A stretch of 22,296 nucleotides of DNA. It comes from a virus. The notes below the pieces were generated by a model that saw only the letters and a list, made by a program, of their open reading frames with translations, ran no database searches and was not told where the DNA came from. The translations under genes were made by a program, and so were the position numbers. Positions 10,516-22,296 of this stretch are shown here, piece by piece (the first letter of the stretch is position 1; each line of letters opens with the position of its first letter). Location of the stretch: IMG/VR virus record IMGVR_UViG_3300031784_000214, positions 1 through 22,296 of that record. One strand, given 5' to 3'.

Positions 10516-10523
10516 GGTATAAT
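10495..10523 (+). promoter_or_regulatory. Leaderless promoter
   Basis: TATACA (10495-10500), 17 bases, TATAAT (10518-10523), then six bases (AGAACT) to ATG 10530. It lies at the very end of the proteasome-like gene. Confidence 0.7.
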
Positions 10524-10529
10524 AGAACT

Positions 10530-10889
10530 ATGAAATGGCTCATAGTAATTGCAGTTACACTTGCAGTATACATCTGGGCATCAAAAATTAAAGCAAATGT
10601 CAAGCTATTCCTTGATAACTATGAAATTTTGCTGGTAGACAAGGAAGATGTTGAAAGAGAAGGCAGACACTCTGATGACATTTTACAATTAAGACCAGAA
10701 AGTTATGAGAACTCTATTGATTTAAGAGGCACCCCAACACACGTATGTCCATGTGGATCACAAATTTGGAACCTTAAAGTTATTTTTGAAGACTTTGAAA
10801 TTGCTACCTATTTCCTAGATATGGAATGTGTTAGCTGCGGTAGTGTTGCTACAGCACCTACCCCTGTAGACAGAGAGGAAACAGAGTGA
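10530..10889 (+). CDS. Membrane-anchored zinc-ribbon protein
   Basis: A 119-residue protein. An N-terminal membrane segment (about residues 3-17) is followed by a charged linker and a zinc-ribbon domain: CPC (Cys73, Cys75) and CVSC (Cys100, Cys103), with the intervening IWNLKVIFEDFEIATYFLDM. The TPVDREE tail is acidic. The domain is of a type I have seen in phage genomes without a known function. The mRNA is probably leaderless. Confidence 0.65.
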   Translation: MKWLIVIAVTLAVYIWASKIKANVKLFLDNYEILLVDKEDVEREGRHSDDILQLRPESYENSIDLRGTPTHVCPCGSQIWNLKVIFEDFEIATYFLDMECVSCGSVATAPTPVDREETE

Positions 10890-11065
10890 GAAAGTCAGAA
10901 AGACTAAGACTACTAGAAATGCAAGTCGTAAGACTTGAAATGATGGTTGAGTTGTATACACAAAGCTTAACTAATCTATTACAGTCTCAAGGCCTACAGA
11001 CTCCAACACAGCTCGATGCTGGAAAATGGTATAAGGCTAAGTTAGATAAACTAGATAACGAATAG
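10886..11065 (+). CDS. Small coiled-coil protein
   Basis: A 59-residue protein starting at GTG (10886), overlapping the previous stop by four bases, with GAGAGGAA upstream as ribosome-binding site. The N-terminal half is an amphipathic helix (VRKSERLRLLEMQVVRLEMM) likely to dimerise; the C-terminal half includes QLDAGKWYKAKLDKLD. No family name can be given. Confidence 0.65.
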   Translation: MRKSERLRLLEMQVVRLEMMVELYTQSLTNLLQSQGLQTPTQLDAGKWYKAKLDKLDNE

Positions 11066-11068
11066 CCT

Positions 11069-11097
11069 ATTGACAACCTGTCAATATTTAGTAGAAT
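11069..11097 (+). promoter_or_regulatory. Subtilase promoter with palindromic operator
   Basis: TTGACA (11070-11075), 16 bases, TAGAAT (11092-11097), then seven bases to ATG 11105, so the mRNA is essentially leaderless. A perfect inverted repeat ATTGACA-ACC-TGTCAAT (11069-11085) covers the -35 box and is centred 28 bases before the start. Confidence 0.75.
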
Positions 11098-11104
11098 AGG
11101 TACT

Positions 11105-12046
11105 ATGAATAAAAAAATAATCACGGCTCTAGTAGCCCTAGTAATCGCTTTACCTACAACTGCAACTGCTGCTTCTAAAAACAATATTAGCAACAAGTCT
11201 GCACAAATTCCAACAATAGCAATCCTGGACACAGCGATTGACACATCTCTACCTATTTTTAAAGACAAGATTATTTACGAAGCATGTGTTGTTCAGTGGA
11301 GCTCATGCCCAAATGGCTTGTCGGTCATGGAAGGTCCTGGCTCTGCCACATTGAAGACAGAGTGGCTTTCAAAAAATGGATTTGATCATGGCACACAAAT
11401 GTCATCTCTTGCAGTGGCAACAAATCCAAACATTAACATTGTTTTTGTTAAGATTATCGGTACAAACATCAATGGATTGAGGCAGGCTGCAGGAGAACCT
11501 ACTGTGTATAACGCATTAGAATGGGTAATCCAAAATAAGAATAAGTTTAACATTCAGGCTGTTTCTATGTCTCAAGGACACCACAACTTGGTAACTGGAT
11601 CAGACTATTGTCCTAAAACACCAGTAACCGAATCAAAGATTGAAACATTGAAATCAATGGATGTCGGAGTATTCTTCCCAACTGGAAATACTAGAGACTA
11701 TTCAAGAATCGATTGGCCAGCATGTATCCCATCTGCAATAGCAATTGGTGCTACAATGCCTACACAAACTGTTGCGATTTATAGCAATTATGACCCTAAG
11801 CTAACAGATTTCTTTGCACAGGGAACAACACAAGCGGTCACCGTTGGCGGAAAGACTATCAATGTCGCTGGAACCTCTAGTGCAACTGTAATTGCAGCCA
11901 CATCATGGGCAACAATTAAAGCGCATAAGCCACAACTTAATTACAATCAGATTTATGATTTGATTGCTAAGACATCTATCAATACATCTAGTTCTAGGGT
12001 AACTTCTGGTAAGTTAATTAATTTAAATGGCGCTCTAAATGGGTGA
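11105..12046 (+). CDS. Secreted subtilisin-like serine protease (S8)
   Basis: A 313-residue protein with a clear signal peptide (MNKK, hydrophobic core, ATAA cleavage region near residue 23). The catalytic triad is Asp42 (IAILDTAID), His95 (FDHGTQMSS) and Ser258 (AGTSSAT), with the oxyanion-hole asparagine Asn195 (PTGN). The usual proline after GTSxA is replaced by valine. No propeptide domain is obvious between signal and catalytic domain, which is unusual for secreted subtilases. It should act outside the membrane on envelope or released host proteins. The likely leaderless promoter carries an operator-like palindrome. Confidence 0.85.
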   Translation: MNKKIITALVALVIALPTTATAASKNNISNKSAQIPTIAILDTAIDTSLPIFKDKIIYEACVVQWSSCPNGLSVMEGPGSATLKTEWLSKNGFDHGTQMSSLAVATNPNINIVFVKIIGTNINGLRQAAGEPTVYNALEWVIQNKNKFNIQAVSMSQGHHNLVTGSDYCPKTPVTESKIETLKSMDVGVFFPTGNTRDYSRIDWPACIPSAIAIGATMPTQTVAIYSNYDPKLTDFFAQGTTQAVTVGGKTINVAGTSSATVIAATSWATIKAHKPQLNYNQIYDLIAKTSINTSSSRVTSGKLINLNGALNG

Positions 12047-12248
12047 ACAATTAACCATACTTGAAGAGATCATTAAAGAAATTGGTGAGGAGTTGTACCA
12101 GAAATGGTACAACGGCCTTGCCCTAGAAGATAGAACTGAAGAAGCTTCAAAGGCTATGTCTGTAAATGCAGGAGAAACCGCAGTCTGGGTTATCCAAACA
12201 TTTATGAATAAGTTCAATAGTGCAGCGGATGAATTAAAGGGAGAGTAA
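12039..12248 (+). CDS. Hypothetical 69-residue helical protein
   Basis: A 69-residue, mostly helical protein beginning MGEQLTILEEIIKEIGEELYQKWYNGL and ending MNKFNSAADELKGE. It overlaps the subtilase gene by eight bases. No family is recognised. Its last bases provide the ribosome-binding site of the thioredoxin gene. Confidence 0.6.
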   Translation: MGEQLTILEEIIKEIGEELYQKWYNGLALEDRTEEASKAMSVNAGETAVWVIQTFMNKFNSAADELKGE

Positions 12249-12249
12249 G

Positions 12250-12552
12250 TTGATAGTTACAGATGAAAGTTTTGATAGCGTACTTAAATCTCACGATTTA
12301 GTGCTTATCGACTTTTGGGCTCCATGGTGTGGACCATGCAAAAAGGTATCTCCAATCCTAGATGAGATATCAGAAGAGCGTGGTTTATGGGTCGGAAAGT
12401 TAAATGTTGATGAGAATCCTATAAAATCATCAGAATACTCTGTAACATCAATACCTTATATGGTATTATTTAAGTCTGGAAAGCCAGTGAAAACAATTAC
12501 TGGTGCAAAGCCTAAGCACATCATGCTAAAGGAGATTTCAGAATGGATCTAG
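12250..12552 (+). CDS. Thioredoxin
   Basis: A 100-residue thioredoxin, a cytoplasmic dithiol-disulfide reductase. The active site is WAPWCGPCKKVSP (Cys27, Cys30), with the buried Asp21 in LIDFWA and the cis-proline in SVTSIPYMVLF (Pro69). It starts at TTG six bases after AAGGGAG. Without a signal peptide it acts inside the cell, for example with ribonucleotide reductase (not in this window) or as a polymerase processivity factor as in T7; neither is shown here. It lies between small unknown genes in an operon with the secreted protease. Confidence 0.9.
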   Translation: MIVTDESFDSVLKSHDLVLIDFWAPWCGPCKKVSPILDEISEERGLWVGKLNVDENPIKSSEYSVTSIPYMVLFKSGKPVKTITGAKPKHIMLKEISEWI

Positions 12553-12743
12553 AATTTGATTCAGAAGATACTAATCATTTAGAGTTTGAAATATGGCTTA
12601 AGAATGGTTATGATCGTGGCTGGGTATCAGATGTATTTTGTGATACACATGATGGCCCACCAATGTCAGATGAAGAAATGCAAGAATGGGATGAAGGTGG
12701 AGATCCCTGTTCATTTCATGTAAAAATACATGAATTACATTAA
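12543..12743 (+). CDS. Hypothetical acidic protein
   Basis: A 66-residue very acidic protein, with conserved-looking elements FEIWLKNGYDRGWVSDVFCDTHDGPPMSDEE and DEGGDPCSFHV. The Cys and His residues could bind a metal. AAAGGAG lies upstream inside the thioredoxin gene, which it overlaps by ten bases. This pattern is familiar from small actinophage proteins, but no function is known. Confidence 0.6.
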   Translation: MDLEFDSEDTNHLEFEIWLKNGYDRGWVSDVFCDTHDGPPMSDEEMQEWDEGGDPCSFHVKIHELH

Positions 12744-12791
12744 GTTTCTGTGCTCACATTAGAGGCAGAAGAAATAAGGAGAATAAATTAA

Positions 12792-13814
12792 ATGAACTCA
12801 TTTAAGAAAGTATCGCTAATCATCGCTGCAGCCCTGACTAGCACAATGCTTGTATCGCCAGCAGCTCAGGCTAATGCTGGAACTGTTACCCTAACGGTGG
12901 CGGGATCTGCAGCAACAGGTGGAACAGTAGTAGGAACTCCTGTATCACTTCCAGTGCCAGCAGACAACAGTATCGATGCAGCAGATGCATTGAAGATTGC
13001 TGTAACGTCAGTAGACACTGGCACAGTAGTAACAGCAGTTGCAACTAATGCAACAATTGTTTCTGCTCTAGCAACATCAGCAGCACCAGTAACCGCATCA
13101 AGCGGATCTTCAACACTTTCAGTTTCAACAGGAACTGGAAATTCAGCAGACTTTTTTGTATATACTAAGTCTACATCAGTAGGAACAGTATCGATTACTC
13201 GTGCTGGAACTACAACTGTTTACTATGTACAGGGTACAGCAGGTGCCCTAAACTCAATCGCTTTGTCTGCACCAGTATCAGGAGCAGCAGGCACAGTAGC
13301 AACACTAAAGGTAACTGGATACGATGTATTCGGTAACGCTAAGGGTGGAGCAACAATTAATACTCTAGTATCTTCAAATGGTGTTGCAACAGCAACAGCG
13401 CTTACAACAGATACAGCAACAGCAACACTTGGAACAAAGGAGCAGTCAGTCACACTTCCTGCTTCAGGTTCAGTCGTTGTTACAGCATATGCAACAGTTG
13501 CAGCAGCAGTAACTGGTCTTTCAACACCAGTAGGTGCAGTAACAGCAACAGTTGCAGTTCGTGATCTTGCAGGTGAGCTTGCAGCAAGAACTGCAGAACT
13601 AGCAGTTGCTAACGCAGCGCTAGCAGCAGAGAAGGCTGGACGTGCAGCAGATAAGGTAGCAGCAGATAAGGCTATTACAGATGCAGCAGCAAAGCTTGCT
13701 ACAGACAAGGCAGCAGCGGATCTTGCTAAGGCTATTTATATCAAGGAATACAATGCCCTTGCTACAAAGTGGAACGCAAAGAATCCAAAGGCTAAGGTCA
13801 AGCTAAAGAAGTAA
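12792..13814 (+). CDS. Secreted surface-layer-like protein (host-type)
   Basis: A 340-residue exported protein. Residues 1-28 are a signal peptide (MNSFKKVSLIIAAALTS, cleavage near AQANA). Two beta-rich, Thr/Ala/Val-rich stretches follow, the second (about 150-255) reading like an Ig-like repeat (SIALSAPVSGAAGTVATLKVTGYDVFGNAKGG). Then come an Ala-rich coiled coil (ELAARTAELAVANAALAAEKA) and the end YNALATKWNAKNPKAKVKLKK. This layout resembles cell-surface proteins of planktonic actinobacteria, so the gene may come from a host. AAGGAG provides a strong ribosome-binding site; a strong terminator follows directly. It could coat the infected cell, but that is inference. Confidence 0.65.
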   Translation: MNSFKKVSLIIAAALTSTMLVSPAAQANAGTVTLTVAGSAATGGTVVGTPVSLPVPADNSIDAADALKIAVTSVDTGTVVTAVATNATIVSALATSAAPVTASSGSSTLSVSTGTGNSADFFVYTKSTSVGTVSITRAGTTTVYYVQGTAGALNSIALSAPVSGAAGTVATLKVTGYDVFGNAKGGATINTLVSSNGVATATALTTDTATATLGTKEQSVTLPASGSVVVTAYATVAAAVTGLSTPVGAVTATVAVRDLAGELAARTAELAVANAALAAEKAGRAADKVAADKAITDAAAKLATDKAAADLAKAIYIKEYNALATKWNAKNPKAKVKLKK

Positions 13815-13825
13815 TTCTTTAAATT

Positions 13826-13855
13826 AAAGGGGCAGGACTCAGGTCTTGCCCCTTT
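13826..13855 (+). terminator. Strong intrinsic terminator
   Basis: A 13-bp stem (13826-13838 with 13843-13855, one G-U pair) with a TCAG loop; its arms start with AAAGGGGCA and end with TGCCCCTTT. It closes the surface-protein gene. The T-run is short and lies in the 3' arm. Confidence 0.85.
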
Positions 13856-13874
13856 AGTATATAAATGATAGAAT
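13846..13874 (+). promoter_or_regulatory. Leaderless promoter overlapping the terminator
   Basis: TTGCCC (13846-13851), inside the 3' arm of the terminator, 17 bases, TAGAAT (13869-13874), then six bases to ATG 13881. Confidence 0.6.
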
Positions 13875-13880
13875 AGATGT

Positions 13881-14024
13881 ATGGATAAACTCATAGAATA
13901 CCTAGATGAAAGTCATAGGAAAAAAATTGCGGATGAGATAAGATATTTAGAATTGCCTCCAGAGTGGAGACCGTATGAGGTTATACGATATATAGTTAGG
14001 ATAATAGAAAAACAAAATGGGTAA
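13881..14024 (+). CDS. Hypothetical 47-residue protein
   Basis: A 47-residue charged helical protein: MDKLIEYLDESHRKKIADEI, then LPPEWRPYEVIRYIVRIIEKQNG. A -10 box six bases upstream implies a leaderless mRNA. It overlaps the following gene by eight bases. No family is recognised. Confidence 0.6.
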   Translation: MDKLIEYLDESHRKKIADEIRYLELPPEWRPYEVIRYIVRIIEKQNG

Positions 14025-14160
14025 GCACCACGACAAAATTAAAAAGGCTTTAGAGCAAAGAATTGCAGCAACACCTAACGGTGCAGGATTTAAGAAACCA
14101 GGTTCTATGAATAAAAAGAAGACAGGTTATCGTGGCCAAACAGCCAAAGGGTCCAAATAG
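14017..14160 (+). CDS. Small basic protein
   Basis: A 47-residue, strongly basic protein (MGKHHDKIKKALEQRI, then a Gly/Lys-rich tail with PGSMNKKKTGYRGQTAKG). It probably binds nucleic acid or a membrane surface, judging only by charge. It overlaps both neighbours, which indicates coupled translation. Confidence 0.55.
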   Translation: MGKHHDKIKKALEQRIAATPNGAGFKKPGSMNKKKTGYRGQTAKGSK

Positions 14161-14282
14161 TGTTCGGTGAGTTATGTGAATGGCCTGGATGTAGTAATAA
14201 ATCTAGTAGGATTGCTGCTAAACCAGAAGGCGGAATTATAGATATTTGTGACAAGTGTTGGCACAACGAATATAAATCATAA
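14160..14282 (+). CDS. Mini zinc-ribbon protein
   Basis: A 40-residue protein starting at GTG, overlapping the previous stop by one base. Two cysteine pairs, CEWPGC (Cys6, Cys11) and CDKC (Cys30, Cys33), followed by WHNEY, form a likely zinc ribbon. The family is not recognised. Confidence 0.6.
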   Translation: MFGELCEWPGCSNKSSRIAAKPEGGIIDICDKCWHNEYKS

Positions 14283-14293
14283 GAGGTATTAAA

Positions 14294-14512
14294 ATGGAAT
14301 CGTCCAAGAGAAGTTTATACAAGTCATTATCATGGCCTGCAGTACATATCCTTTTTGTAGGCACACTGGTATATTTTTTTGAGCTACTAATTACTGGAGA
14401 AGCACACTGGGAGTATGCTGGTTCATTTGCAATAATTTATACCCTATGTGAAGCCTTAGGGTTCTTTCTACACGAAAGAGCATGGAATAAATACGGCAAT
14501 AAGATCAAATAG
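14294..14512 (+). CDS. DUF2061-like membrane protein
   Basis: A 72-residue membrane protein with the DUF2061 pattern: the start KSLSWPAVHI, two membrane segments (about 16-34 and 41-58), an ITGEAHW loop between them and the hallmark HERAWNKYG (His60 to Trp64) at the end. The family occurs in bacteria and phages; its function is unknown. AGAGGT provides the ribosome-binding site. Confidence 0.75.
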   Translation: MESSKRSLYKSLSWPAVHILFVGTLVYFFELLITGEAHWEYAGSFAIIYTLCEALGFFLHERAWNKYGNKIK

Positions 14513-14543
14513 CCAACGTTTTAGTCTATTAAAAAAGAAATGC

Positions 14544-14580
14544 TATAATAGACTGATAGATGGATTTCTAGACCCATCTA
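14544..14580 (+). promoter_or_regulatory. Promoter and leader hairpin
   Basis: Extended -10 TGC-TATAAT (14541-14549) with a weak -35. A 7-bp hairpin TAGATGG/CCATCTA (14557-14563 with 14574-14580) starts at the predicted transcript start, followed 13 bases later by AGGAG. Confidence 0.7.
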
Positions 14581-14604
14581 AATACAACCTATAGGAGTAA
14601 TAAA

Positions 14605-14763
14605 ATGACAGACGGAAACAACTTGACAGGTTTTAATGAAGTAAAGCCAGCAACAGCAACAGCTTGGAATGGTGAGCAATATGCAGCAGATCCTGCATCA
14701 GCTTTCTCATCAGCAGATAAGTCAACACAAGACGGTTCTGGCCTAGGCAACGGCGGTAAGTAA
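14605..14763 (+). CDS. Hypothetical 52-residue protein
   Basis: A 52-residue protein, rich in Ala, Ser and Gly and without strong secondary structure (MTDGNNLTGFNEVKPATATAW and the end DGSGLGNGGK). AGGAG lies eight bases upstream. A strong promoter, leader hairpin and clean ribosome-binding site suggest abundant expression of a possibly structural protein. It is not recognised. Confidence 0.6.
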   Translation: MTDGNNLTGFNEVKPATATAWNGEQYAADPASAFSSADKSTQDGSGLGNGGK

Positions 14764-14765
14764 TT

Positions 14766-14915
14766 ATGTGTATTGAATGCGGATGTGAAGCATTTGGTAG
14801 CGAAACTGGTATTGTTCCAGTAACTATTACTGATGTTTCAAGAGATGGCGAATCAGGTCTAACCCTAGACATGACTTCAACACCAGAGCAGACAAGACAA
14901 TTCATCAATGAGTAA
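14766..14915 (+). CDS. Small cysteine-containing protein
   Basis: A 49-residue protein starting MCIECGCEAFGSETGIVPVT, with three cysteines in the first seven residues, then a beta hairpin and an amphipathic end. The MCxECGC start is a pattern I associate with small phage proteins, perhaps metal-binding. It starts two bases after the previous stop and overlaps the next gene by eight bases. Confidence 0.6.
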   Translation: MCIECGCEAFGSETGIVPVTITDVSRDGESGLTLDMTSTPEQTRQFINE

Positions 14916-15120
14916 TTTTACAAAAGACGATGGAACTGGAATGACACCACCAGGAGGCGCAGGATCAGCATCTGGTGCAGTAACAAGTCGTGAGGCAACA
15001 AGAAAATATCCAAAGCAAGGCGTTAAGCCAAGAATAAAGATAGATGTTAACAGCCACGGTATACGTAGAGAAACATCACTAGATCCAAAGCCTAAGAAGA
15101 CAAGACCAAAGAAGGTCTAA
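14908..15120 (+). CDS. Basic low-complexity protein
   Basis: A 70-residue protein with a Gly/Ser/Pro-rich first third (DDGTGMTPPGGAGSASGAVT) and a Lys/Arg-rich rest (KYPKQGVKPRIKIDVN, KPKKTRPKKV). It is probably unstructured and binds nucleic acid, judged by charge only. It overlaps the preceding gene by eight bases, and an intrinsic terminator follows. Confidence 0.6.
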   Translation: MSNFTKDDGTGMTPPGGAGSASGAVTSREATRKYPKQGVKPRIKIDVNSHGIRRETSLDPKPKKTRPKKV

Positions 15121-15129
15121 TTACATATT

Positions 15130-15159
15130 AGATATGGCCCCATAACTGGGGCTATATTT
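15130..15159 (+). terminator. Intrinsic terminator
   Basis: A stem of 12 pairs (15130-15141 with 15148-15159, two G-U) with GGCCCC/GGGGCT at the top and a six-base loop, followed by a T-rich tail. It ends the three-gene transcript from 14605. Confidence 0.8.
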
Positions 15160-15173
15160 ATTTAAGGATAACA

Positions 15174-15263
15174 ATGTGCAAAAAATGTGGTAACTGTTCA
15201 GCAGAACATAACGGCAGAACTATAGATGATGCTATAGACGAAATCCTTGACTCTCCAATATAA
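15174..15263 (+). CDS. Tiny cysteine protein
   Basis: A 29-residue protein MCKKCGNCSAEHNG, then a short acidic helix. Three cysteines at CKKCGNC plus a histidine could hold one metal ion. AAGGATA lies before the ATG, immediately after the terminator. It is short, but the start, ribosome-binding site and similar tiny proteins in phages support it moderately. Confidence 0.45.
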   Translation: MCKKCGNCSAEHNGRTIDDAIDEILDSPI

Positions 15264-15275
15264 ATATTATATAAT
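15247..15275 (+). promoter_or_regulatory. Promoter
   Basis: TTGACT (15247-15252), 17 bases, TATAAT (15270-15275). It drives the membrane protein at 15301 and the genes behind it; no leader hairpin is evident. Confidence 0.75.
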
Positions 15276-15300
15276 GGATATCTAACAGAAAGAATTTTAA

Positions 15301-15513
15301 ATGTATTGGTCGTATGTATTAGCTGCAATTGGCGTAGCAGGAATATTTTTTGTCGGTAGGAAAACAATATGGGGATGGCTAATTCTGCTATTTAATGAAG
15401 CCTTGTGGATAACCTATGCTTTAATAACTAATCAATATGGATTTATATTGTCAGCAATTGCTTATGGTATTGTATATATTAGATCTTATATACACTGGAA
15501 AAGAGAAGAATAG
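15301..15513 (+). CDS. Small membrane protein
   Basis: A 70-residue protein with two or three membrane segments (about 4-20, 24-41 and 45-61). The layout WGWLILLFNEALWITYALITNQYGFILSAIAYGIVY resembles a trimmed PnuC-like or small phage transporter-type protein; this is a loose likeness only. The leader lacks a strong ribosome-binding site (AGAAAG). Confidence 0.6.
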   Translation: MYWSYVLAAIGVAGIFFVGRKTIWGWLILLFNEALWITYALITNQYGFILSAIAYGIVYIRSYIHWKREE

Positions 15514-15544
15514 TGATGCAAAAAGTGCGGCGAAAAGAGAGAGC

Positions 15545-15682
15545 ATGTTGAGAATTAAAAGCATTTTGTGCAAAATTAAAGGACATGTGTTGGTAATGGC
15601 GGGCTCATGCCCGTTTACAGGATCAACTTATGAATACTGTGAAAGATGCACGGCAATGATTCCTATTCAGAAAGCGGTTTAA
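15545..15682 (+). CDS. Small zinc-binding protein
   Basis: A 45-residue protein with C9...GH14...CPFTGSTYEYCERC (Cys22, Cys32, Cys35). The order C-x-x-x-x-H, CPFTG, YxxCxRC is a phage pattern that I recognise without a named function; the residues suit one zinc ion. A longer in-frame start at 15437 runs through the preceding gene and is unlikely; GAGAGAG lies before ATG 15545. Confidence 0.65.
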   Translation: MLRIKSILCKIKGHVLVMAGSCPFTGSTYEYCERCTAMIPIQKAV

Positions 15683-15683
15683 A

Positions 15684-15995
15684 ATGTTAACTAATTTAGT
15701 TGAAAGATACCTTATGCGTCCTAAACGCCTCAGAGAGGCAATACAAGCGGTTGTTCACGATAACGATGAACTACTACGCAGGATTAAAGAACACGAACAA
15801 GATGATACTCCAACCAATCTTACGTGGTCTGAAGGCGACAGATGGTATGGATGGACATACAATAGTAACGCCAAGCGTTATTACTTTGACGACATTGGCA
15901 ATGAATCATTGATGGGGCTATGGGAAGATCAATGGGCTAGGGAAAAAGAAGTTGTCAAATCATCTTTATTTGAAAATCAGGTAGACTTTGAATGA
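15684..15995 (+). CDS. Hypothetical 103-residue protein
   Basis: A 103-residue protein. The N-terminal half is a basic amphipathic helix (RPKRLREAIQAVVHDNDELLRRIKEHEQ). The C-terminal half is rich in Trp and Tyr (WSEGDRWYGWTYNSNAKRYYFDD). It starts one base after the previous stop without a good ribosome-binding site and overlaps the next gene by four bases (ATGA). It is not recognised. Confidence 0.6.
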   Translation: MLTNLVERYLMRPKRLREAIQAVVHDNDELLRRIKEHEQDDTPTNLTWSEGDRWYGWTYNSNAKRYYFDDIGNESLMGLWEDQWAREKEVVKSSLFENQVDFE

Positions 15996-16195
15996 GAAGA
16001 CTTTTAAATGGGTCGGAAGTTCCAGAAACTGATAAAGCAGTAGATCTAACAATACATACTAAGGCTCCAGCTAAATGGCTTCTAATCGACATGGAGACTG
16101 GACAAGAATATATCGGATCAGAAGAGCCTAATCTTTATGGCAAATGGAAACGGATAAAAGATAAATCTGAGTTTTATCAAGATGAGATATGGTAG
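15992..16195 (+). CDS. Hypothetical 67-residue protein
   Basis: A 67-residue protein whose core KAPAKWLLIDMETGQEYIG...GKWKRI is a short beta-sheet pattern recurring in many phage small proteins (kW-LxDxxTGexYxG--xGxWxrI). Function is unknown. It overlaps both neighbours by four and seven bases. Confidence 0.65.
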   Translation: MRRLLNGSEVPETDKAVDLTIHTKAPAKWLLIDMETGQEYIGSEEPNLYGKWKRIKDKSEFYQDEIW

Positions 16196-16368
16196 CAGGA
16201 GACTATACTTATTCTTATTTTTGTAAATGTGGGTCTGAGACTTACATGGAGTTGTCTAAAGAATTAGACTATAAACCTAAATGTCTTAAATGTAATTCTA
16301 GTCAACTAATATTAAGATACACAGTAATACATGGTGAGTTGTGGATGAGCCCTGACCTACATGAATAA
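16189..16368 (+). CDS. Zinc-ribbon protein
   Basis: A 59-residue protein with two cysteine pairs, CKC (Cys12, Cys14) and CLKC (Cys32, Cys35), around YMELSKELDYKPK, an FmdB-like or rubredoxin-like zinc knuckle. It overlaps the previous gene by seven bases. Function is unknown. Confidence 0.65.
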   Translation: MVAGDYTYSYFCKCGSETYMELSKELDYKPKCLKCNSSQLILRYTVIHGELWMSPDLHE

Positions 16369-16376
16369 AGAAATGG

Positions 16377-16382
16377 TACAAT
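16377..16382 (+). promoter_or_regulatory. Leaderless -10 box
   Basis: TACAAT lies exactly six bases (ATACTT) before ATG 16389. The -35 is weak (CTGACC at 16352-16357, 19-base spacing). Confidence 0.5.
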
Positions 16383-16388
16383 ATACTT

Positions 16389-17153
16389 ATGAGTGAAAAA
16401 ACAGGATATAAGCCAACTTCTGGTATGCAGTCAGCAGCACGTCGTGCCATTAAACTAAAAGAGCAGGGCAAGGCAAAGGGTGCAGGAACAGCGGTAGGTT
16501 GGACAAGAGCTGGACAACTGGCAAGAGGCGAAACATTAAGCTTATCTACAGTTAAGCGCATGTATTCCTTTTTTTCTCGCCATGAGGTAGATAAGCAAGG
16601 AAAAGATTGGGATAACGCAGAGAATCCTTCAAACGGAAAGATCATGTGGCTTGCTTGGGGCGGGGATGCAGGATTTTCTTGGTCTAGAAAAATTGTTGAA
16701 AGAGAGAAGAATATGAAAAAGTCACTAGAATTAAATGAGATCGTAGAAGAGATTAAAGATATCCTTGATGATGTGGTAAACCCAATCACGAAGGCAATTG
16801 AGATTGAAATTGAAGAAGAAGACGAAGAAGACGATATGGAAGATACCGAAGATTGCAAGTGTAATGGGTGTATGGATTGTAAGGCAAAAGGCGGATGCAC
16901 CGAGAAGTCATGCAAAGGCCATGATAATATGTACAAGTCTGAAGAGCTTTCAGATGAAGAGATTTCAAAGTCATACGAGTCCGATAATGAAGAAGAGGAC
17001 AAGTGGGACAATATGCAGAAGGCTTGCTGGTCTGGATATACCCAAAGAGGTATGAAGGAAAAAGATGGTCGCATGGTACCTAATTGCGTACCCGTAAAGA
17101 AGTCTCTATTCGGCACAGAAGGACCTCAAACACTAATCCCTAGGAACAGATAG
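16389..17153 (+). CDS. Conserved phage protein with Cys-rich insert
   Basis: A 254-residue protein in three parts. Residues 10-103 carry a known phage module (SAARRAIKLKEQGKAKGAG, VGWTRAGQLARGE, LSTVKRMYSFFSRHEVDK, GKIMWLAWGGDAGFSW), found in several phage structural or processing proteins; function unknown to me. Residues 138-155 are strongly acidic. Residues 156-178 form a Cys-rich cluster (six cysteines and His178). The end (210-236) carries the second phage motif KACWSGYTQRGMKEKDGRMV-PNCVP. It is probably leaderless. It may belong to capsid morphogenesis, but that is uncertain. Confidence 0.65.
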   Translation: MSEKTGYKPTSGMQSAARRAIKLKEQGKAKGAGTAVGWTRAGQLARGETLSLSTVKRMYSFFSRHEVDKQGKDWDNAENPSNGKIMWLAWGGDAGFSWSRKIVEREKNMKKSLELNEIVEEIKDILDDVVNPITKAIEIEIEEEDEEDDMEDTEDCKCNGCMDCKAKGGCTEKSCKGHDNMYKSEELSDEEISKSYESDNEEEDKWDNMQKACWSGYTQRGMKEKDGRMVPNCVPVKKSLFGTEGPQTLIPRNR

Positions 17154-17154
17154 T

Positions 17155-17322
17155 ATGGGTATCCTAGATAATCTAGAGGCATACTTAGAGGCGGCGGAAG
17201 AGACAGATAAGTGTTATTACTGTCAAGCCATTGCTACATACAACGATATAGCTGAAGTAGATAGAAACTATCAAATAGTAGGCGTATGTGGATGTCATGC
17301 ATATAAAGGATTAGTTTCATAA
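17155..17322 (+). CDS. Small zinc-ribbon protein
   Basis: A 55-residue protein: an acidic amphipathic helix (MGILDNLEAYLEAAEETDK), then CYYC (Cys20, Cys23) and CGCH (Cys45, Cys47, His48), which suit one zinc ion. It starts one base after the preceding stop with AGGAAC upstream. Confidence 0.6.
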   Translation: MGILDNLEAYLEAAEETDKCYYCQAIATYNDIAEVDRNYQIVGVCGCHAYKGLVS

Positions 17323-17330
17323 TCGGTAAT

Positions 17331-17528
17331 ATGCCAAAAGACAAAGAGTTTAAAATAAGCATTGGAGCAGTAGAAGCCCAGTGGGACGAAGATAATCAAA
17401 ACTATACCGTAGACATATCATTTAATCTAGGTGGGTCAGCAGAATACATAATGGATGAAGATCAATTATCTGATTTTGAGTCGAATCCTACTGGAAAATA
17501 TTATAACTCTAATATTAGATTAAGTTAA
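17331..17528 (+). CDS. Hypothetical 65-residue protein
   Basis: A 65-residue beta-rich protein (FKISIGAVEAQWDEDNQNYTVDISFNLG) with an acidic middle. CATAAT lies seven bases before the ATG, a weak leaderless candidate. It is not recognised. Confidence 0.55.
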   Translation: MPKDKEFKISIGAVEAQWDEDNQNYTVDISFNLGGSAEYIMDEDQLSDFESNPTGKYYNSNIRLS

Positions 17529-17573
17529 ATATAGACCGCAATTAGTGCGAAAATTTCGGCGGTAGAGACCCCC

Positions 17574-17602
17574 TTGTCAGTACCTGACAAATATACTATA
17601 AT
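17574..17602 (+). promoter_or_regulatory. Leaderless promoter with palindromic operator
   Basis: TTGTCA (17574-17579), 17 bases, TATAAT (17597-17602), then six bases to ATG 17609. A perfect inverted repeat TTGTCAG-TAC-CTGACAA (17574-17590) covers the -35 box and is centred 27 bases before the start. Confidence 0.8.
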
Positions 17603-17608
17603 AGGCAT

Positions 17609-17818
17609 ATGTTACAGAGCCTAGAGATACCTGATCCATTTGCTACATTTGTAGCAAACAAATATGCCAAATTTAAGGGCATGCAATATGACTTCTTTGC
17701 CAAAGAATGGCACCTAAAAGCTGCTTGCTGTGGGGAAGACCTTTATGCTCCAAATAGAAAAACTATGACTAAGATCAGACTTTATCACACCAGAAATGAA
17801 TGTATGGGCGGGTACTAA
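17609..17818 (+). CDS. Hypothetical 69-residue protein
   Basis: A 69-residue protein beginning MLQSLEIPDPFATFVANKYAKF. The second half has CC (39-40) and a late H...C pair (HTRNEC), possibly metal-binding. The promoter with an operator-like palindrome starts a new, probably repressible, transcript here that includes the following three genes. It is not recognised. Confidence 0.6.
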   Translation: MLQSLEIPDPFATFVANKYAKFKGMQYDFFAKEWHLKAACCGEDLYAPNRKTMTKIRLYHTRNECMGGY

Positions 17819-18331
17819 TTGGCTAGAATCTGGGAATATAGCCTATCTGCCAAAGAGGAAGCCATATGTGTAGAGGTAGGATATCAAAGACAAAAGCCAT
17901 ATTTTGGTGATCCAAGTAAGAATATCAACTATGCTGAAGGTGATCTCTGGGAGATGTGGCAGCATGTCGTATGTGCAGGATCAGAATTGGCATTTGCCAG
18001 AATGCTTGGCAAGAAAGAGTTTGTACCACACTTTAACAAATGGAAGACTGAATTAGATGTTCCAGGGGTTGGGGAAATTAGATACTCATTTAATCCAACT
18101 GGTGGGCTACGCTTCACCAAGAGGGATAACCCTGATCTAAGATATGTCCTAATGATAGATGGCATGGCCATCAAGAATAGGACGGGGCGGAATGAAGATA
18201 GAAGAAGTACTCCCTATAAAGCTATAGGCTGGATGTATGGACATGAGTGCATGCAAGAGGTATATCTATCTAAATATAATAATACTACATGGGTAGTACC
18301 TTATGATCAATTAAGGCCAATGCCCAAATAA
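17819..18331 (+). CDS. Conserved phage protein, PD-(D/E)XK-like
   Basis: A 170-residue protein starting at TTG immediately after the previous stop. The order GSELAFAR (Glu56), ELDVPGVGEIRYS (Asp80, Glu86, Arg88), then LRFTKRDNPDLRYVLM and GWMYGHEC and the end WVVPYDQLRPMP matches a widespread phage protein type whose E-D-ExK/R residues suggest a PD-(D/E)XK nuclease fold; catalytic Lys is replaced by Arg here. A DNA-processing role is inference. Confidence 0.55.
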   Translation: MARIWEYSLSAKEEAICVEVGYQRQKPYFGDPSKNINYAEGDLWEMWQHVVCAGSELAFARMLGKKEFVPHFNKWKTELDVPGVGEIRYSFNPTGGLRFTKRDNPDLRYVLMIDGMAIKNRTGRNEDRRSTPYKAIGWMYGHECMQEVYLSKYNNTTWVVPYDQLRPMPK

Positions 18332-18341
18332 GGGGGAACCA

Positions 18342-18596
18342 ATGGCATATAGCAGATTCTACAATAGTCATATATACATATATCCCCATGTAGCAGGGTA
18401 TATCGAATGTGCTGGATGCTGGTTAAATAAAGATAAGTCTGGAATGTCAATCTTTCCTAAAGGTGTAGAGATATATACAGATGATCAACTAATCGCTCAT
18501 TTAGATCAACATGCCAAGGCTGGTCATTCTATGCCAGAGGGGCTACTGGATGAAATTTTGCGGGATCCAGAGAGATATGGTATCCTAGAACAATGA
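18342..18596 (+). CDS. C2H2-type small phage protein
   Basis: An 84-residue protein: MAYSRFYNSHIYIYPHVAGY, then IECAGC (Cys23, Cys26) and HLDQH (His53, His57), a CxxC...HxxxH zinc layout, and the AGHSMPEGLLDEI tail. This order is frequent in actinophages. GGGGGAA is a strong ribosome-binding site. Function is unknown. Confidence 0.75.
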   Translation: MAYSRFYNSHIYIYPHVAGYIECAGCWLNKDKSGMSIFPKGVEIYTDDQLIAHLDQHAKAGHSMPEGLLDEILRDPERYGILEQ

Positions 18597-18775
18597 TAAC
18601 TATACTAGCCATACTCATTACATGGTATATAACCAAGTACTATTACACTCGATCATTTACTCTGGATATAGAACAATCTGATCTAATTAAAGCTACATGC
18701 TCCAAATGTGCTCGATCAGGATATATCAGTCAAGATAACCTACGTGCTCCATACTACTGCATCTCCTGTAAATAG
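18593..18775 (+). CDS. Membrane-anchored mini zinc ribbon
   Basis: A 60-residue protein with an N-terminal membrane segment (2-18) and a terminal zinc ribbon CSKC (Cys36, Cys39) and CISC (Cys56, Cys59). It overlaps the previous gene by four bases (ATGA) and is the last plus-strand gene of the block. Confidence 0.65.
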   Translation: MITILAILITWYITKYYYTRSFTLDIEQSDLIKATCSKCARSGYISQDNLRAPYYCISCK

Positions 18776-18781
18776 AGCACA

Positions 18782-18799
18782 ATAGGAGCTAACTCCTAT
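18782..18799 (+). terminator. Possible terminator hairpin
   Basis: ATAGGAG-CTAA-CTCCTAT, a perfect 7-bp stem six bases after the last plus-strand stop. There is no T-run, so termination may need a factor or a second hairpin nearby (GGCCT/AGGCC at 18829-18843). Confidence 0.5.
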
Positions 18800-18850
18800 A
18801 TCCCCCCGCCCATAAACATGGCTCATATGGCCTTCTAGAGGCCTTATAAA

Positions 18851-18875
18851 TGGAGTAAAGTGGAGCATTGTGGAG
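18851..18875 (+). repeat. Three TGGAG boxes, 10-base period
   Basis: TGGAG at 18851, 18861 and 18871, each separated by five unrelated bases. The exact one-turn spacing would put three protein contacts on one face of the helix. Confidence 0.5.
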
Positions 18876-18999
18876 AATTTATACTATAGATACTGTTTAA
18901 TTAGTTATTGATTTATCGACAAATATACATATGTGTAATTGAACCTTATCAAATGATTGCCCGTAATGTCAAATTTGTCCATTTTGGATATAGACATGC

Positions 19000-19064
19000 T
19001 GGCATATTTCAGGGATTTTGTCAATAGCCTCGTAAATGGCATATTTTGCCCACATTGTCAATAG
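19000..19064 (+). repeat. Two copies of a 28-base direct repeat
   Basis: TGGCATATTT-N9-TGTCAATAG occurs at 19000-19027 and 19037-19064, 37 bases apart. Both outer blocks are identical, while the nine central bases differ, so these look like paired contacts of one protein. Confidence 0.75.
19012..19051 (+). repeat. 40-base spaced repeat, copy A
   Basis: GGGAT (19012-19016), 13 bases, TCGTAAA (19030-19036), 9 bases, TTGCCC (19046-19051). The last block runs into TTGCCCACA, a DnaA-box-like sequence. Confidence 0.75.
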
Positions 19065-19179
19065 ATTTTATGTAGAAAATATAGAGGAAATTTTGACAGA
19101 TTCTGGGTATATTATGCTTAATTCATTATATGTTTTAAATGATTCTATATCTATTTGTCGACATTTCTACAAATTTTGA

Positions 19180-19219
19180 GGGATTTTTAATATGCCCTCG
19201 TAAACGAGAAAAATTGCCC
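19180..19219 (+). repeat. 40-base spaced repeat, copy B
   Basis: GGGAT (19180-19184), 13 bases, TCGTAAA (19198-19204), 9 bases, TTGCCC (19214-19219), continuing to TTGCCCACA. Copy C starts exactly 50 bases later. Confidence 0.75.
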
Positions 19220-19229
19220 ACAAATTTCA

Positions 19230-19269
19230 GGGATTTTTTTTGATCTGTCGTAAAGGGGAAAATTTGCCC
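19230..19269 (+). repeat. 40-base spaced repeat, copy C
   Basis: GGGAT (19230-19234), 13 bases, TCGTAAA (19248-19254), 9 bases, TTGCCC (19264-19269), continuing to TTGCCCACA. It lies just before the perfect DnaA boxes. Confidence 0.75.
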
Positions 19270-19298
19270 ACATGCCCACACACAAAAAATCCACAGGC

Positions 19299-19319
19299 TG
19301 TGGATAAACCTGTGGATAA
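19299..19319 (-). other. Two perfect DnaA boxes
   Basis: TGTGGATAA at 19299-19307 and 19311-19319 is the consensus DnaA box TTATCCACA read on the minus strand, in direct repeat with a 12-base period. TTGCCCACA at 19046, 19214 and 19264 (plus strand) differs by one base from TTGTCCACA, the form common in Actinobacteria. Confidence 0.75.
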
Positions 19320-19378
19320 TTTGGGCTATATACTAACCAACTAAGTATATGTTGCCATTAGATAAGCTTGCTTACTAT

Positions 19379-19804
19379 CTAGATAAATGGATGATCTATA
19401 GTTACATGTTGTCTATTATCTTTATCATGTAACCAGGAGTATCTGTAACTTTGTTCCTCCGCCTTTGGTAGCTTTTTGATTACCTTGTCTGGGTCCACTG
19501 GAAGTTTGATGTTCTCCCATTTGTATTGCTTAATTAGTTTATTAAGAGTTTGATTTAGTTCGTGTGCTAAGAACAATCCTTCACAGGATTGGCCTGAGTT
19601 ATAAATACCTGACTCTGTAGTTAATTCATCATTATGTCTATTTGCTTCCCAGCGAATAATTTGAGCAACTAATTCCATAATGCGGTCAACTGTGTAAAAT
19701 GGTTGGTCTGTTAGATATCTTGCCAATATGGCAGGATTAAACCAATGGTCTTCTGTTAGATTAACTAGGTCTTCTGCTACTTTGATTTCTCTTGTCTTAC
19801 TCAT
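19379..19804 (-). CDS. Hypothetical 141-residue protein
   Basis: A 141-residue soluble protein. It has a helical N-terminal part (VAEDLVNLTEDHWFNPAILARYLTDQPF, then IMELVAQIIRWEANRHND), a Cys-containing middle and a Lys-rich C-terminal third (KLIKQYKWENIKLPVDPDKVIKK). No family is recognised. It has its own promoter (TATAAT at 19839 to 19834 on the minus strand, with TTGCCA upstream) and GGAAG before the ATG. It lies next to the origin-like region, so a replication role is possible, but only by position. Confidence 0.65.
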   Translation of the reverse strand: MSKTREIKVAEDLVNLTEDHWFNPAILARYLTDQPFYTVDRIMELVAQIIRWEANRHNDELTTESGIYNSGQSCEGLFLAHELNQTLNKLIKQYKWENIKLPVDPDKVIKKLPKAEEQSYRYSWLHDKDNRQHVTIDHPFI

Positions 19805-19833
19805 TCTTCCGCCTTCCGCCTTGGTAACTGCTC

Positions 19834-19881
19834 ATTATATCAAAATTAGGGAGGGGTGGCAACTCTCGTCCACCACCCCTC
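19834..19881 (-). terminator. Terminator with embedded promoter (minus strand)
   Basis: GAGGGGTGG (19851-19859) pairs with CCACCCCTC (19873-19881); on the minus strand a TTTT run follows, ending the Lsr2-like gene. The -35 box TTGCCA (19862 to 19857) of the next gene lies across the loop and 3' arm, 17 bases before TATAAT (19839 to 19834). Confidence 0.65.
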
Positions 19882-19888
19882 GTTCTAT

Positions 19889-20041
19889 TTACTTAGCCTT
19901 TTTTGTAGCTGGCTGTGGGTCCGTGAAGGTAACACCCTTGTTCATAGCTTCCTGGATAGCTACCTTGGCAGCTCCTGAGAAACGTCCACGTACACCTACT
20001 GTAATTCCTTGCTGCTTTAGATATTCACGCTTTGTTGTCAT
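19889..20041 (-). CDS. Lsr2 C-terminal-like DNA-binding mini-protein
   Basis: A 50-residue protein MTTKREYLKQQGITVGVRGR, followed by FSGAAKVAIQEAMNKG. The order RE-aromatic, six residues, G, then RGR matches the C-terminal DNA-binding domain of Lsr2, whose RGR motif enters the AT minor groove. The N-terminal oligomerisation domain is absent. A stand-alone DNA-binding domain might compete with host Lsr2 or act as a counter-silencer (inference). It has a clear promoter and AGAAAGG before the ATG, and a terminator follows. Confidence 0.6.
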   Translation of the reverse strand: MTTKREYLKQQGITVGVRGRFSGAAKVAIQEAMNKGVTFTDPQPATKKAK

Positions 20042-20075
20042 TTGGTTTGATCCTTTCTAGATCGGTTTTGTTTTA

Positions 20076-20104
20076 ATTATAACAGATTTCCACGGGATTG
20101 TAAA
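20076..20104 (-). promoter_or_regulatory. Promoter of Lsr2-like gene
   Basis: On the minus strand TTTACA (20104 to 20099), 17 bases, TATAAT (20081 to 20076). The -35 box falls inside copy D of the spaced repeat. Confidence 0.75.
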
Positions 20105-20132
20105 TACCTGTCGTAAAGCAAATTTTTTGCCC
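20094..20132 (+). repeat. Spaced repeat, copy D
   Basis: GGGAT (20094-20098), 12 bases, TCGTAAA (20111-20117), 9 bases, TTGCCC (20127-20132). It lies about 825 bases from the other copies, at the promoter of the Lsr2-like gene, and lacks the following ACA of the DnaA-like box. Confidence 0.7.
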
Positions 20133-20137
20133 CTGCT

Positions 20138-20296
20138 TTAAATTTTTTTAGTCAGCTTATCTTTAATTAGTTTTTGTTCTTCCCGCCAGCGCTGCCAATG
20201 ATTAACTTGTTTGATCTCGACATCTACTTCTGGTGGGCACTCAAGGATCTTTGGGACTCCCCCAACTATCTCTATTTTAACTTTATACTTGCTCAT
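20138..20296 (-). CDS. Hypothetical 52-residue protein
   Basis: A 52-residue protein MSKYKVKIEIVGGVPKILEC, then PPEVDVEIKQVNHWQRWREE and a Lys-rich end. Two beta strands and a helix are likely. It overlaps the upstream gene by 14 bases and is the last gene of the long minus-strand operon. It is not recognised. Confidence 0.6.
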   Translation of the reverse strand: MSKYKVKIEIVGGVPKILECPPEVDVEIKQVNHWQRWREEQKLIKDKLTKKI

Positions 20297-20426
20297 CGCC
20301 TAACCTATCTTTAATTAGTTTAGCAATGATGTTATGAGCTTGAATGTTCTCTGTCTCTGATCCGCCCCACAGAAGCCTTTGGGCCTCTGCGAGGACGGTG
20401 TCCACGTACTGATCACTCATCTTCAT
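20283..20426 (-). CDS. Hypothetical 47-residue helical protein
   Basis: A 47-residue protein MKMSDQYVDTVLAEAQRLLW, then GGSETENIQAHNIIAKLIKDRL. I chose the start at 20426 because GGAGG lies six bases upstream; a start two codons later is also possible. The repeated helix resembles phage DUF proteins of the 'ilaeAxxLvwgxR-x-Yg' type without a firm match. Confidence 0.55.
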   Translation of the reverse strand: MKMSDQYVDTVLAEAQRLLWGGSETENIQAHNIIAKLIKDRLGDEQV

Positions 20427-20724
20427 CTTCTTCCTCCTCTTCGCTTTCAGGGTCAACCATGTGGCCCCGTTCAATTAGCCAGTCCATTACATCGTCGCTT
20501 AGTTGTTCGGCACCATACTCTAATGAGAAGCCAAAGCCTTCGTCCACTGACTTGCATAGGTCCTCCCATACTTCATCCTCAGTCGATTTAAAGATGTAGT
20601 CTGAGTCGTTCATTCGGTATTTAATTACGTCCCACGTCCACAGCCATACCAGGGACAGCCCAAGGTCGGTGCTTTCTAGAATAGAAATACATTCGTTTAG
20701 TTTATCTTTATCTGCTGGCTTCAT
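20413..20724 (-). CDS. Hypothetical acidic protein
   Basis: A 103-residue protein with a hydrophobic, Trp-rich first part (LGLSLVWLWTWDVIKYRM) and a strongly acidic end (ESEEEEEDEDE). It may mimic DNA by charge, which is only a possibility. It overlaps neighbours by 17 and 14 bases. Confidence 0.6.
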   Translation of the reverse strand: MKPADKDKLNECISILESTDLGLSLVWLWTWDVIKYRMNDSDYIFKSTEDEVWEDLCKSVDEGFGFSLEYGAEQLSDDVMDWLIERGHMVDPESEEEEEDEDE

Positions 20725-20941
20725 ATGCTAGTTCCTTTTCTTCCCATTGTGCGAGTGTTCTGACTGTAAAGTCTTTTCCGAGATTGTAGCAGAATCGAAC
20801 GGATTCCTCAAGTGTGGTAGCACTAAAAATCGGAGGACTAGAATGGTCACGTTCATCAAGACTATAGACCTCAAACTCATCAATACCTCCTGGACTAATA
20901 GAATAATTTACTTCTAGAATTTCTAATTGAACATCATTCAT
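20708..20941 (-). CDS. Hypothetical 77-residue protein
   Basis: A 77-residue protein MNDVQLEILEVNYSISPGGI, with later TLEESVRFCYNLGKDFTVRTLAQWEEKEL. The start at 20941 has GGAG seven bases upstream and overlaps the previous stop by eight bases; a longer frame from 20971 lacks this. It is not recognised. Confidence 0.6.
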   Translation of the reverse strand: MNDVQLEILEVNYSISPGGIDEFEVYSLDERDHSSPPIFSATTLEESVRFCYNLGKDFTVRTLAQWEEKELAYEASR

Positions 20942-21206
20942 TACGTGCTCCAATCGCAAATGATAAATCATATGTTAGTTTATACATACCAGTTAATGCG
21001 TCAAGATATCCTTCAGCATATGTGCGTTCCATTGAATCCATTGCCTCTTCTGACCTGTCTTCCGCCTCTTGTGCAAGCGCTAGGTCTTGCTCTCCAATTA
21101 GCATTAGGTTTTTAAGTTCCCCGTGCATTATATCTAATCCAGTAACACCTGCATTTACCATACGTTGCAAGTGGGGCGGGAGCCCAATATCTTCTGCAGT
21201 CATCAT
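20934..21206 (-). CDS. Hypothetical 90-residue helical protein
   Basis: A 90-residue protein. MTAEDIGLPPHLQRMVNAGV is followed by acidic helices (LALAQEAEDRSEEAMDSMERTYAEGYLDALTG). The ERxYAEGYLDAL phrase is reused in the neighbour at 21405 (LWAEGYFDGY), so the two may be related. AAAGGG lies upstream; the ATG pair overlaps the previous stop. Confidence 0.6.
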   Translation of the reverse strand: MMTAEDIGLPPHLQRMVNAGVTGLDIMHGELKNLMLIGEQDLALAQEAEDRSEEAMDSMERTYAEGYLDALTGMYKLTYDLSFAIGARNE

Positions 21207-21421
21207 TCATATACCCTTTCGTTAGAGTCATTCATTATATCAGTAGCCACTGACAATAAATGCCTGGTTGCCTCAATTTGTCCGTCAATGCCTAATATGT
21301 AATCTATCGCATCATCGTCCTCATCAAAGACATATTTATTCTGATATGCCTCTTTGTCTTGTTCTAAACTAATTAGATGTAACTTCATATATTCCAGGAA
21401 TCTACTAGTCTTGGTAACCAT
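21203..21421 (-). CDS. Hypothetical 72-residue helical protein
   Basis: A 72-residue protein MVTKTSRFLEYMKLHLISLEQ, then an acidic FDEDDDAIDYILGIDGQIEATRHLL helix pair. The helical, acidic nature resembles its neighbours. It starts within the preceding gene. It is not recognised. Confidence 0.6.
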   Translation of the reverse strand: MVTKTSRFLEYMKLHLISLEQDKEAYQNKYVFDEDDDAIDYILGIDGQIEATRHLLSVATDIMNDSNERVYE

Positions 21422-21590
21422 CAAAATACCCTTCTGCCCACAAGCCTTGGAGAAAACTAACTGTCTTTTCCAAGCTTTTAACTAATGGCTCCTTGTCGAT
21501 CAAATCGGACGGGGTCCTAAGATAGAATAACTTAGCATCGTGTACAGCATTAATCATTTCATCTATATCTGCCATTTCATATCCTAACAT
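21405..21590 (-). CDS. Hypothetical 61-residue helical protein
   Basis: A 61-residue protein MLGYEMADIDEMINAVHDAK, ending SFLQGLWAEGYFDGYQD. I chose ATG 21590 because GGGAGG lies nine bases upstream and the start overlaps the previous stop (TAATG); an in-frame start at 21644 would lie deep in the previous gene. The ending resembles the AEGYLDAL phrase of the 90-residue neighbour. Confidence 0.6.
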   Translation of the reverse strand: MLGYEMADIDEMINAVHDAKLFYLRTPSDLIDKEPLVKSLEKTVSFLQGLWAEGYFDGYQD

Positions 21591-21757
21591 TACTTTACCT
21601 CCCAATATTCTAGTATTAGATTTAATGCAGAGTGGATATTGCAATCACAATCCCCACCCATATTATCCATAAATTCAAGATGACTATAATTGTCATTATA
21701 GATTTCATCTACTAATGTACCAACAGTCATAGCCCTTAGTTTTTCAACAGTTCTCAT
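21590..21757 (-). CDS. Hypothetical 55-residue protein
   Basis: A 55-residue protein MRTVEKLRAMTVGTLVDEIY, then DNMGGDCDCNIHSALNLILEYWEV. The DCDCNIH motif might bind a metal. It overlaps its upstream neighbour by four bases (ATGA). It is not recognised. Confidence 0.6.
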   Translation of the reverse strand: MRTVEKLRAMTVGTLVDEIYNDNYSHLEFMDNMGGDCDCNIHSALNLILEYWEVK

Positions 21758-22296
21758 TTTCCTAATGCCTCCTCCATTGTGTAGGTTTTCTGATTTGCTA
21801 ATACTACACTATGGGTCTGACATTCTGCCATAGCCACCTCATCCTGCCAAGAGCCTTCTCCACATTCTGAGCAGAATTCACCGCAGTCATCTTCACAATA
21901 AGATAATGTATCAAAAGACTGGCAAGCATAGCAACGATTCTCATATTCTAGAATCTCTTTAACCTCACCACGGACAATCTCATACTCACCACCCCAACCT
22001 GTTTCTTCCTCAAACTCTAATGTGAGCAGGCAGTTAGGAACAAGATTACTTAGTTTAGTTAAGATAGTTACAGCAGGTGACCAAGCAGTTTCATATTTGT
22101 AGACAAGCCAGTTGTCATCACCTTCTGATTTATATTCAAGTAATTCTGTATTAGAATACTCTTCATCATCACGAACGGCTACATCCCATTTGGTGCCCCA
22201 ATTAGAATTATTCCAAGAATACCAATCCTTCTGAGTCTTAGCAAACTCAACAGATTTGCGGAACCAATCAGGGTCATTAGTATCAATACCACCACG
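21754..22296 (-). CDS. Api92-like ferredoxin-fold protein, N-terminus missing
   Basis: The gene runs out of the window, so the first residues are missing; 180 are visible. WYSWNNSNWGTKWD, the ETAWSPAVTILTKLS segment and LTLEFEEETGWGGEY match the ferredoxin-like domain of Api92/YubB-type proteins found in phages and plasmids. A C-terminal extension carries a Cys-rich zinc-binding part (CYACQ, YCEDDCGEFCSECG). It is the most upstream visible gene of the minus-strand operon. Its function is not known. Confidence 0.75.
   Translation of the reverse strand, partial: RGGIDTNDPDWFRKSVEFAKTQKDWYSWNNSNWGTKWDVAVRDDEEYSNTELLEYKSEGDDNWLVYKYETAWSPAVTILTKLSNLVPNCLLTLEFEEETGWGGEYEIVRGEVKEILEYENRCYACQSFDTLSYCEDDCGEFCSECGEGSWQDEVAMAECQTHSVVLANQKTYTMEEALGK

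Follow-up and report, generated by a model that had tools for sequence, protein, structure and literature searches.

A rigidly spaced three-block DNA element in a gene-free region and at leftward promoters of Stanwilliamsviridae-like phages

The complete IMG/VR virus record analyzed here (22,296 bases, hereafter the window) carries four copies of an asymmetric, three-block DNA element that is real and apparently new, and that recurs in about 100 IMG/VR stretches from what is apparently a large family of actinobacterial viruses. The explanation that we tentatively prefer, while placing it a little below an even chance, is that of an oriented binding site of ~45 bp for a putative phage-encoded DNA-binding protein, inherited within Stanwilliamsviridae-like phages; its cluster would mark an untranscribed control region, most likely a replication origin, and its copies at promoters would time or shut off early transcription. 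The first-pass annotation, made from the sequence of the window, had known of no element with such a layout, and we likewise found none in the open literature searched; for the Stanwilliamsviridae, this literature is also silent on an origin, an early regulator or an early-control site.

The four copies are exact where the first-pass annotation had placed them, at 19012, 19180, 19230 and 20094, all on the + strand (Table 1). In copies 1–3, the blocks A, B and C are arranged as GGGAT-N13-TCGTAAA-N9-TTGCCC, with the corresponding gaps being N12 and N9 in copy 4. Two blocks alone (GGGATTN{9,12}TCGTAAA) give four matches in the window versus none in 100 dinucleotide-preserving shuffles, which places the four copies beyond chance. 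The element extends past the three blocks first noticed, running from TTTCAGGGATTTT to AATTTGCCCACA over ~45 bp, with copies 1–3 ending in TTGCCCACA and copy 4 in TTGCCCCTG. Just left of copy 1, at 18969–18979, there is a further block (CGTAATGTCAA), kept in relatives, which reads TTGACATTACG on the minus strand and is perhaps a promoter or a partial element. A megablast of positions 10000–22296 returned no resembling phage record. Elsewhere, between 210 and 12552, the window has genes for Hsp20, a luciferase-like monooxygenase, two 2OG-Fe(II) oxygenases, WhiB and a subtilase, with the ORF at 12250–12552 being thioredoxin-like to judge by its sequence.

Table 1. Features of the element and its surroundings in the window
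Feature	Position	Strand	Details
Element copy 1	19007..19054	+	TTTCAGGGATTTT...TCGTAAA (19030-19036)...TTGCCCACA; TTGCCC 19046-19051
Element copy 2	19175..19222	+	GGGAT 19180-19184, TCGTAAA 19198-19204, TTGCCC 19214-19219
Element copy 3	19225..19272	+	GGGAT 19230-19234, TCGTAAA 19248-19254, TTGCCC 19264-19269
Element copy 4	20089..20132	+	GGGAT 20094-20098, TCGTAAA 20111-20117, TTGCCC 20127-20132
Gene-free region between convergent gene blocks	18776..19378	.	66% AT; 70% in 18880-19270
Intrinsic terminator of leftward operon	19283..19317	-	11-bp stem 19289-19317, then T-run
141-aa helical protein, function not assigned	19379..19804	-	conserved beside element cluster in relatives
Lsr2-like protein, 50 aa	19889..20041	-	PHROG 6269, E 1.7e-8
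Promoter of Lsr2-like gene	20076..20104	-	TTTACA-17-TATAAT, TG before -10; 11 of 12

Across IMG/VR, the exact three-block pattern matches 99 stretches, and most of the matching contigs carry a second or third copy, whose exact form the search did not demand, with most having 2–4 copies. The shorter two-block pattern recovers 1–4 copies in each of 30 records, in one orientation per record, and a reversed-control pattern has no match in the same 30. When a gapped matrix was run on six near-complete contigs (104–116 kb), its strong copies were restricted to the convergent gene-free region and the adjacent leftward gene block; as the matrix was trained mostly on gene-free-region copies, their "stronger" rating is partly by construction. 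On the same six contigs plus the window, a regular expression with a relaxed core matched the leftward strand 39 times, at 26 distinct sites, and the other strand not at all; the reversed control had one match. One record, G010, has an 85-base identical overlap of its ends, suggesting a circularly closing assembly though it is classed as linear. Copies in different contigs are partly kin by descent, and the statistics were computed on non-redundant sets: in these, the information is limited to block A (TTCAGGGATTTT), block B (TCGTAAA) and block C (TTGCCC.CA), with the A–B spacer and the flanks near background and the B–C spacer weakly biased. Further loci, not used in the definition, were fetched with a pattern that allowed the A–B gap four lengths and the third block a range of 4–14 bases; despite this freedom, the A–B gap is identical in 31 of 33 and GCCC is at offset 11 in 28 of 33. 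Hence, conservation of the neighboring sequence does not explain the fixed geometry proposed in the first-pass annotation, which had itself raised the prospect that the blocks might be kept only along with their surroundings: in related phages, blocks and spacing are conserved independently of these.

The metagenomic phages share synteny with the Streptomyces Stanwilliamsviridae and are roughly 40–65% identical to them in DNA polymerase, helicase, primase, RecA, terminase, portal and capsid, and can thus be described as Stanwilliamsviridae-like; further, a DUF932 protein of the leftward block has a ~52% match to Streptomyces cluster BE phages. This kinship, along with the predicted WhiB and Lsr2-like genes, suggests an actinobacterial host. 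The syntenic gene-free region of the Streptomyces phages contains a two-block relative of the element (GGGAATTTT/GGCAAATTTT, 16–19 bp, TCGTAAA). Jay2Jay, Karimac and seven others have 3–6 copies of TCGTAA(A/G) where their long terminal repeat is gene-free, at its left end; the cluster BE copies are all on the + strand, and the first 1000 bases contain no reversed copy. Even when picked by TCGTAA(A/G) alone, they have block A (C-C-G-G-A-A-A-T-T-T) 10–20 bases upstream, above 99.9% of the null. The BE form is also found in one further metagenomic contig of 122 kb. Among the Loccivirinae, Gilson, Karp and Patelgo have GGCAAATTTT-N-TCGTAAAG both in a gene-free region of 1.2–1.8 kb and in some intergenic gaps. 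Against the binding-site reading stand the restriction of block C to the window's group, as the Streptomyces forms do not keep it (the operon-nearest BE copy ends in TCGGACA), and the differing orientation of the element relative to transcription in Gilson-type phages. In Rhodococcus phage Weasels2, the TCGTAAA copies are mostly intragenic and lack block A. A host element is not supported: a scan of 84,980 bacterial and archaeal genomes yielded 41 scattered single hits, none in a record titled Actinobacteria.

In Gilson, the copies at 4782, 7101, 10087 and 12249 come right after stop codons, with stems around TCGTAAA, and element and terminator appear to have merged in the Loccivirinae. Stems of this kind in Gilson and Jay2Jay made it attractive to view the element as a structured nucleic acid, an RNA or single-stranded DNA hairpin whose arms pair around a conserved TCGTAAA loop. 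When own flanks were compared with swapped ones, the Gilson-type intergenic copies indeed proved complementary (p<=0.012), but these are the copies that look like terminators, and neither the metagenomic relatives (p 0.52–0.97) nor cluster BE (p 0.28–0.47) had any excess of pairing; nor do the arms covary in the window's type or in cluster BE. The permutation rejects the hairpin for both of these types, and we attach next to no credence to it. The one sub-threshold Rfam match, to SNORA64, is taken as chance. The position of the cluster BE copies in the first 900 bp of an 11–12 kb terminal repeat (PMC5764925) might alternatively point to a packaging or genome-end signal recognized by the terminase at the direct terminal repeat. 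However, the Gilson terminal repeat measures 766 bp and its cluster, at 120.3–120.5 kb, is more than 7 kb away and not at the packaged genome end, while other copies of the element are at promoters; we accordingly disfavor a pac or terminal-repeat site as highly improbable.

The first-pass annotation was also right in its claim that the fourth copy overlaps the -35 box of the Lsr2-like gene: copy 4 covers TTTACA at 20104–20099 (the extended -10, TATAAT, being at 20081–20076), and block A falls within the -35/-10 spacer of this promoter in both the window and its relatives. Copy 1 similarly contains a -35 hexamer: TTGACA is found between its blocks A and B on the - strand, and the spacer again includes block A. 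The Lsr2-like ORF is reduced to the DNA-binding domain. In cluster BE, lsr2 is among the leftward genes located in the long terminal repeat (PMC5764925); judging from other phages with long repeats, this would fit a role early in infection. Many leftward promoters of the metagenomic relatives have a copy upstream, and the -10 match is often found 28–95 bp downstream of it; the interval between the element and the -10 contains a CRP-like TGTGA-N6-TCACA palindrome and a TGTCAGTGG block. This palindrome and TGTCAGTGG are seen at promoters in the leftward block of records G001, G002, G009 and G010 (e.g., 48027–48135 and 49898–49999 of G001), and in all seven records TGTCAGTGG is found solely on the leftward strand. 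Copy 4 and the relatives' copies thus overlap or adjoin promoters, as members of an operator family do. Together with the shared leftward-only promoter block and the -35 hexamers in copies 1 and 4, this lends itself to a purely transcriptional account, under which the leftward early operon would be repressed or activated by a phage protein bound to the copies, with those in the gene-free region controlling leftward non-coding promoters or constituting a stoperator-like reservoir, and replication would not be involved. We regard this as a possible but rather unlikely alternative: element-to-promoter distances vary widely, and cluster BE phages keep their copies to the gene-free 900 bp at the left end, with only one TCGTAAA-type site elsewhere (first 14–16 kb, two phages).

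Copies 1–3 are inside the gene-free region, as originally noted. The first-pass annotation had further proposed a check of their position relative to the GC-skew minimum; the cluster is instead at a local maximum of the cumulative skew in the window, in line with the switch of gene strand there. Its other suggestion, of a link to DnaA through the DnaA-like sequence ending copies 1–3, is not supported. The only consensus DnaA 9-mers adjoining the cluster are the TTATCCACA 9-mers contained in the stem of the leftward operon's terminator, and in other loci these are replaced by unrelated stems. All 37 non-redundant loci have a strong hairpin at the terminator's place (mean z -5.6), and many relatives build it from unrelated sequence (e.g., GGGACAT...ATGTCCC); hence, the hairpin structure and not the DnaA box is what is conserved. 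Tandem TTATCCACA 9-mers form the stem in one clade and GGACAT-type sequences elsewhere, a wholesale replacement with retention of the hairpin. One could still see the element as a site for a host factor such as DnaA, with TTGCCCACA being a degenerate DnaA box by tandem TTATCCACA boxes, given that tandem TGTGGATAA boxes at a 12-bp pitch are beside the cluster in five of seven records and, in a separate count, in 31 of 97 loci, and that the Gilson gene-free region has two TGTGGATAA-type boxes at the same pitch ~0.55 kb from its copies. However, with the 9-mers being the terminator stem in the window's group, rather than a conserved independent cluster, and with no DnaA-type boxes in the corresponding region of the Streptomyces cluster BE relatives, a DnaA-dependent oriC-type origin is unsupported and we give a host-factor site very little weight.

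Iteron origins, such as those of plasmid Rep and lambda O, consist of direct repeats, all pointing the same way, in non-coding DNA, and the element shares these properties. It could therefore represent only replication-origin iterons for a phage initiator, its promoter copies being autoregulatory leftovers. The AT-rich, gene-free and terminator-shielded setting of the same-orientation repeats and their conservation in three lineages are compatible with this. Yet the spacing from copy to copy is irregular (168 and 50 bp in the window), copies are also present at several promoters and no initiator-type gene or protein is recognizable beside the element. The satellites MiniFlayer and Mulchroom, which are without primase genes and depend on helpers such as MindFlayer and MulchMansion (PMC10690885), lack the element. 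The adjoining conserved 141-aa ORF, considered as a candidate binder of the element, has no known domain, no PDB relative (its structure model is of low confidence, pLDDT 64) and, by profile comparison, no match among the first ORFs of cluster BE. We consider iterons alone unlikely, and the absence from helper-dependent satellites, along with the collapse of the DnaA evidence, also weakens a replication role for the control region.

A precedent for a single phage factor acting at promoters as well as at an origin is provided by the MotA boxes of the T4 middle promoters and oriF; no MotA-like protein or box is recognized here and the geometry is unrelated. Stoperators are dispersed, asymmetric 13 bp operator sites that act in transcription and are bound by the immunity repressor of temperate phages. 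The element resembles them as a set of dispersed asymmetric sites overlapping or adjoining promoters, but differs in its length and in that cluster BE phages are presumed virulent, with no known repressor in the helpers MindFlayer and MulchMansion (PMC10690885). The study that mentions the stoperators of cluster A mycobacteriophages also describes the start-associated sequences (SAS) of cluster K, multi-copy asymmetric sites that are mostly in one orientation, lie in the non-structural gene region and are absent from the host (PMC3203893). The element is similarly multi-copy, asymmetric, mainly in a single orientation, located in the non-structural gene region and without a host pattern in the genomes scanned. 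In contrast, the SAS is a 13 bp sequence (GGGATAGGAGCCC) found at translation starts in 11–19 copies, whereas the element has three blocks over 45 bp and is located in the gene-free region or at or upstream of promoters. Identity with the SAS can be rejected, as the window has two matches to GGGATAGGAGCCC at three mismatches versus 2.67 expected, which is the chance level.

The simplest account, we infer, is that a phage DNA-binding protein recognizes strong sites in the control region and weaker ones at promoters. Briefly, the tandem strong copies would occupy the gap closed to leftward transcription by the leftward operon's terminator, and the weaker copies would overlap leftward promoters or immediately precede them. 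The putative phage protein might contact all three blocks, either along a single face of the DNA or by wrapping it. At the cluster, it would nucleate a control complex, most likely at a replication origin; bound to promoters, for example the one of the Lsr2-like gene, it would cover the -35 and the spacer, and thereby time or shut off early transcription. The homology list had no conspicuous site-specific DNA-binding protein shared by every lineage. A bolder version, of which we are doubtful, would have the element as the three-contact, rigidly spaced, asymmetric site of a new phage regulator that both fires the replication origin and switches early promoters, from the Streptomyces Stanwilliamsviridae to the related metagenomic phages.

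Beyond the element itself, these results illustrate that apparent DnaA boxes can be terminator stems. The Stanwilliamsviridae comprise many sequenced Streptomyces phages, and the element offers a handle in isolates such as Jay2Jay, Karimac and Gilson; it may lead to the regulator of the early genes of the long terminal repeat and, possibly, to the replication origin.
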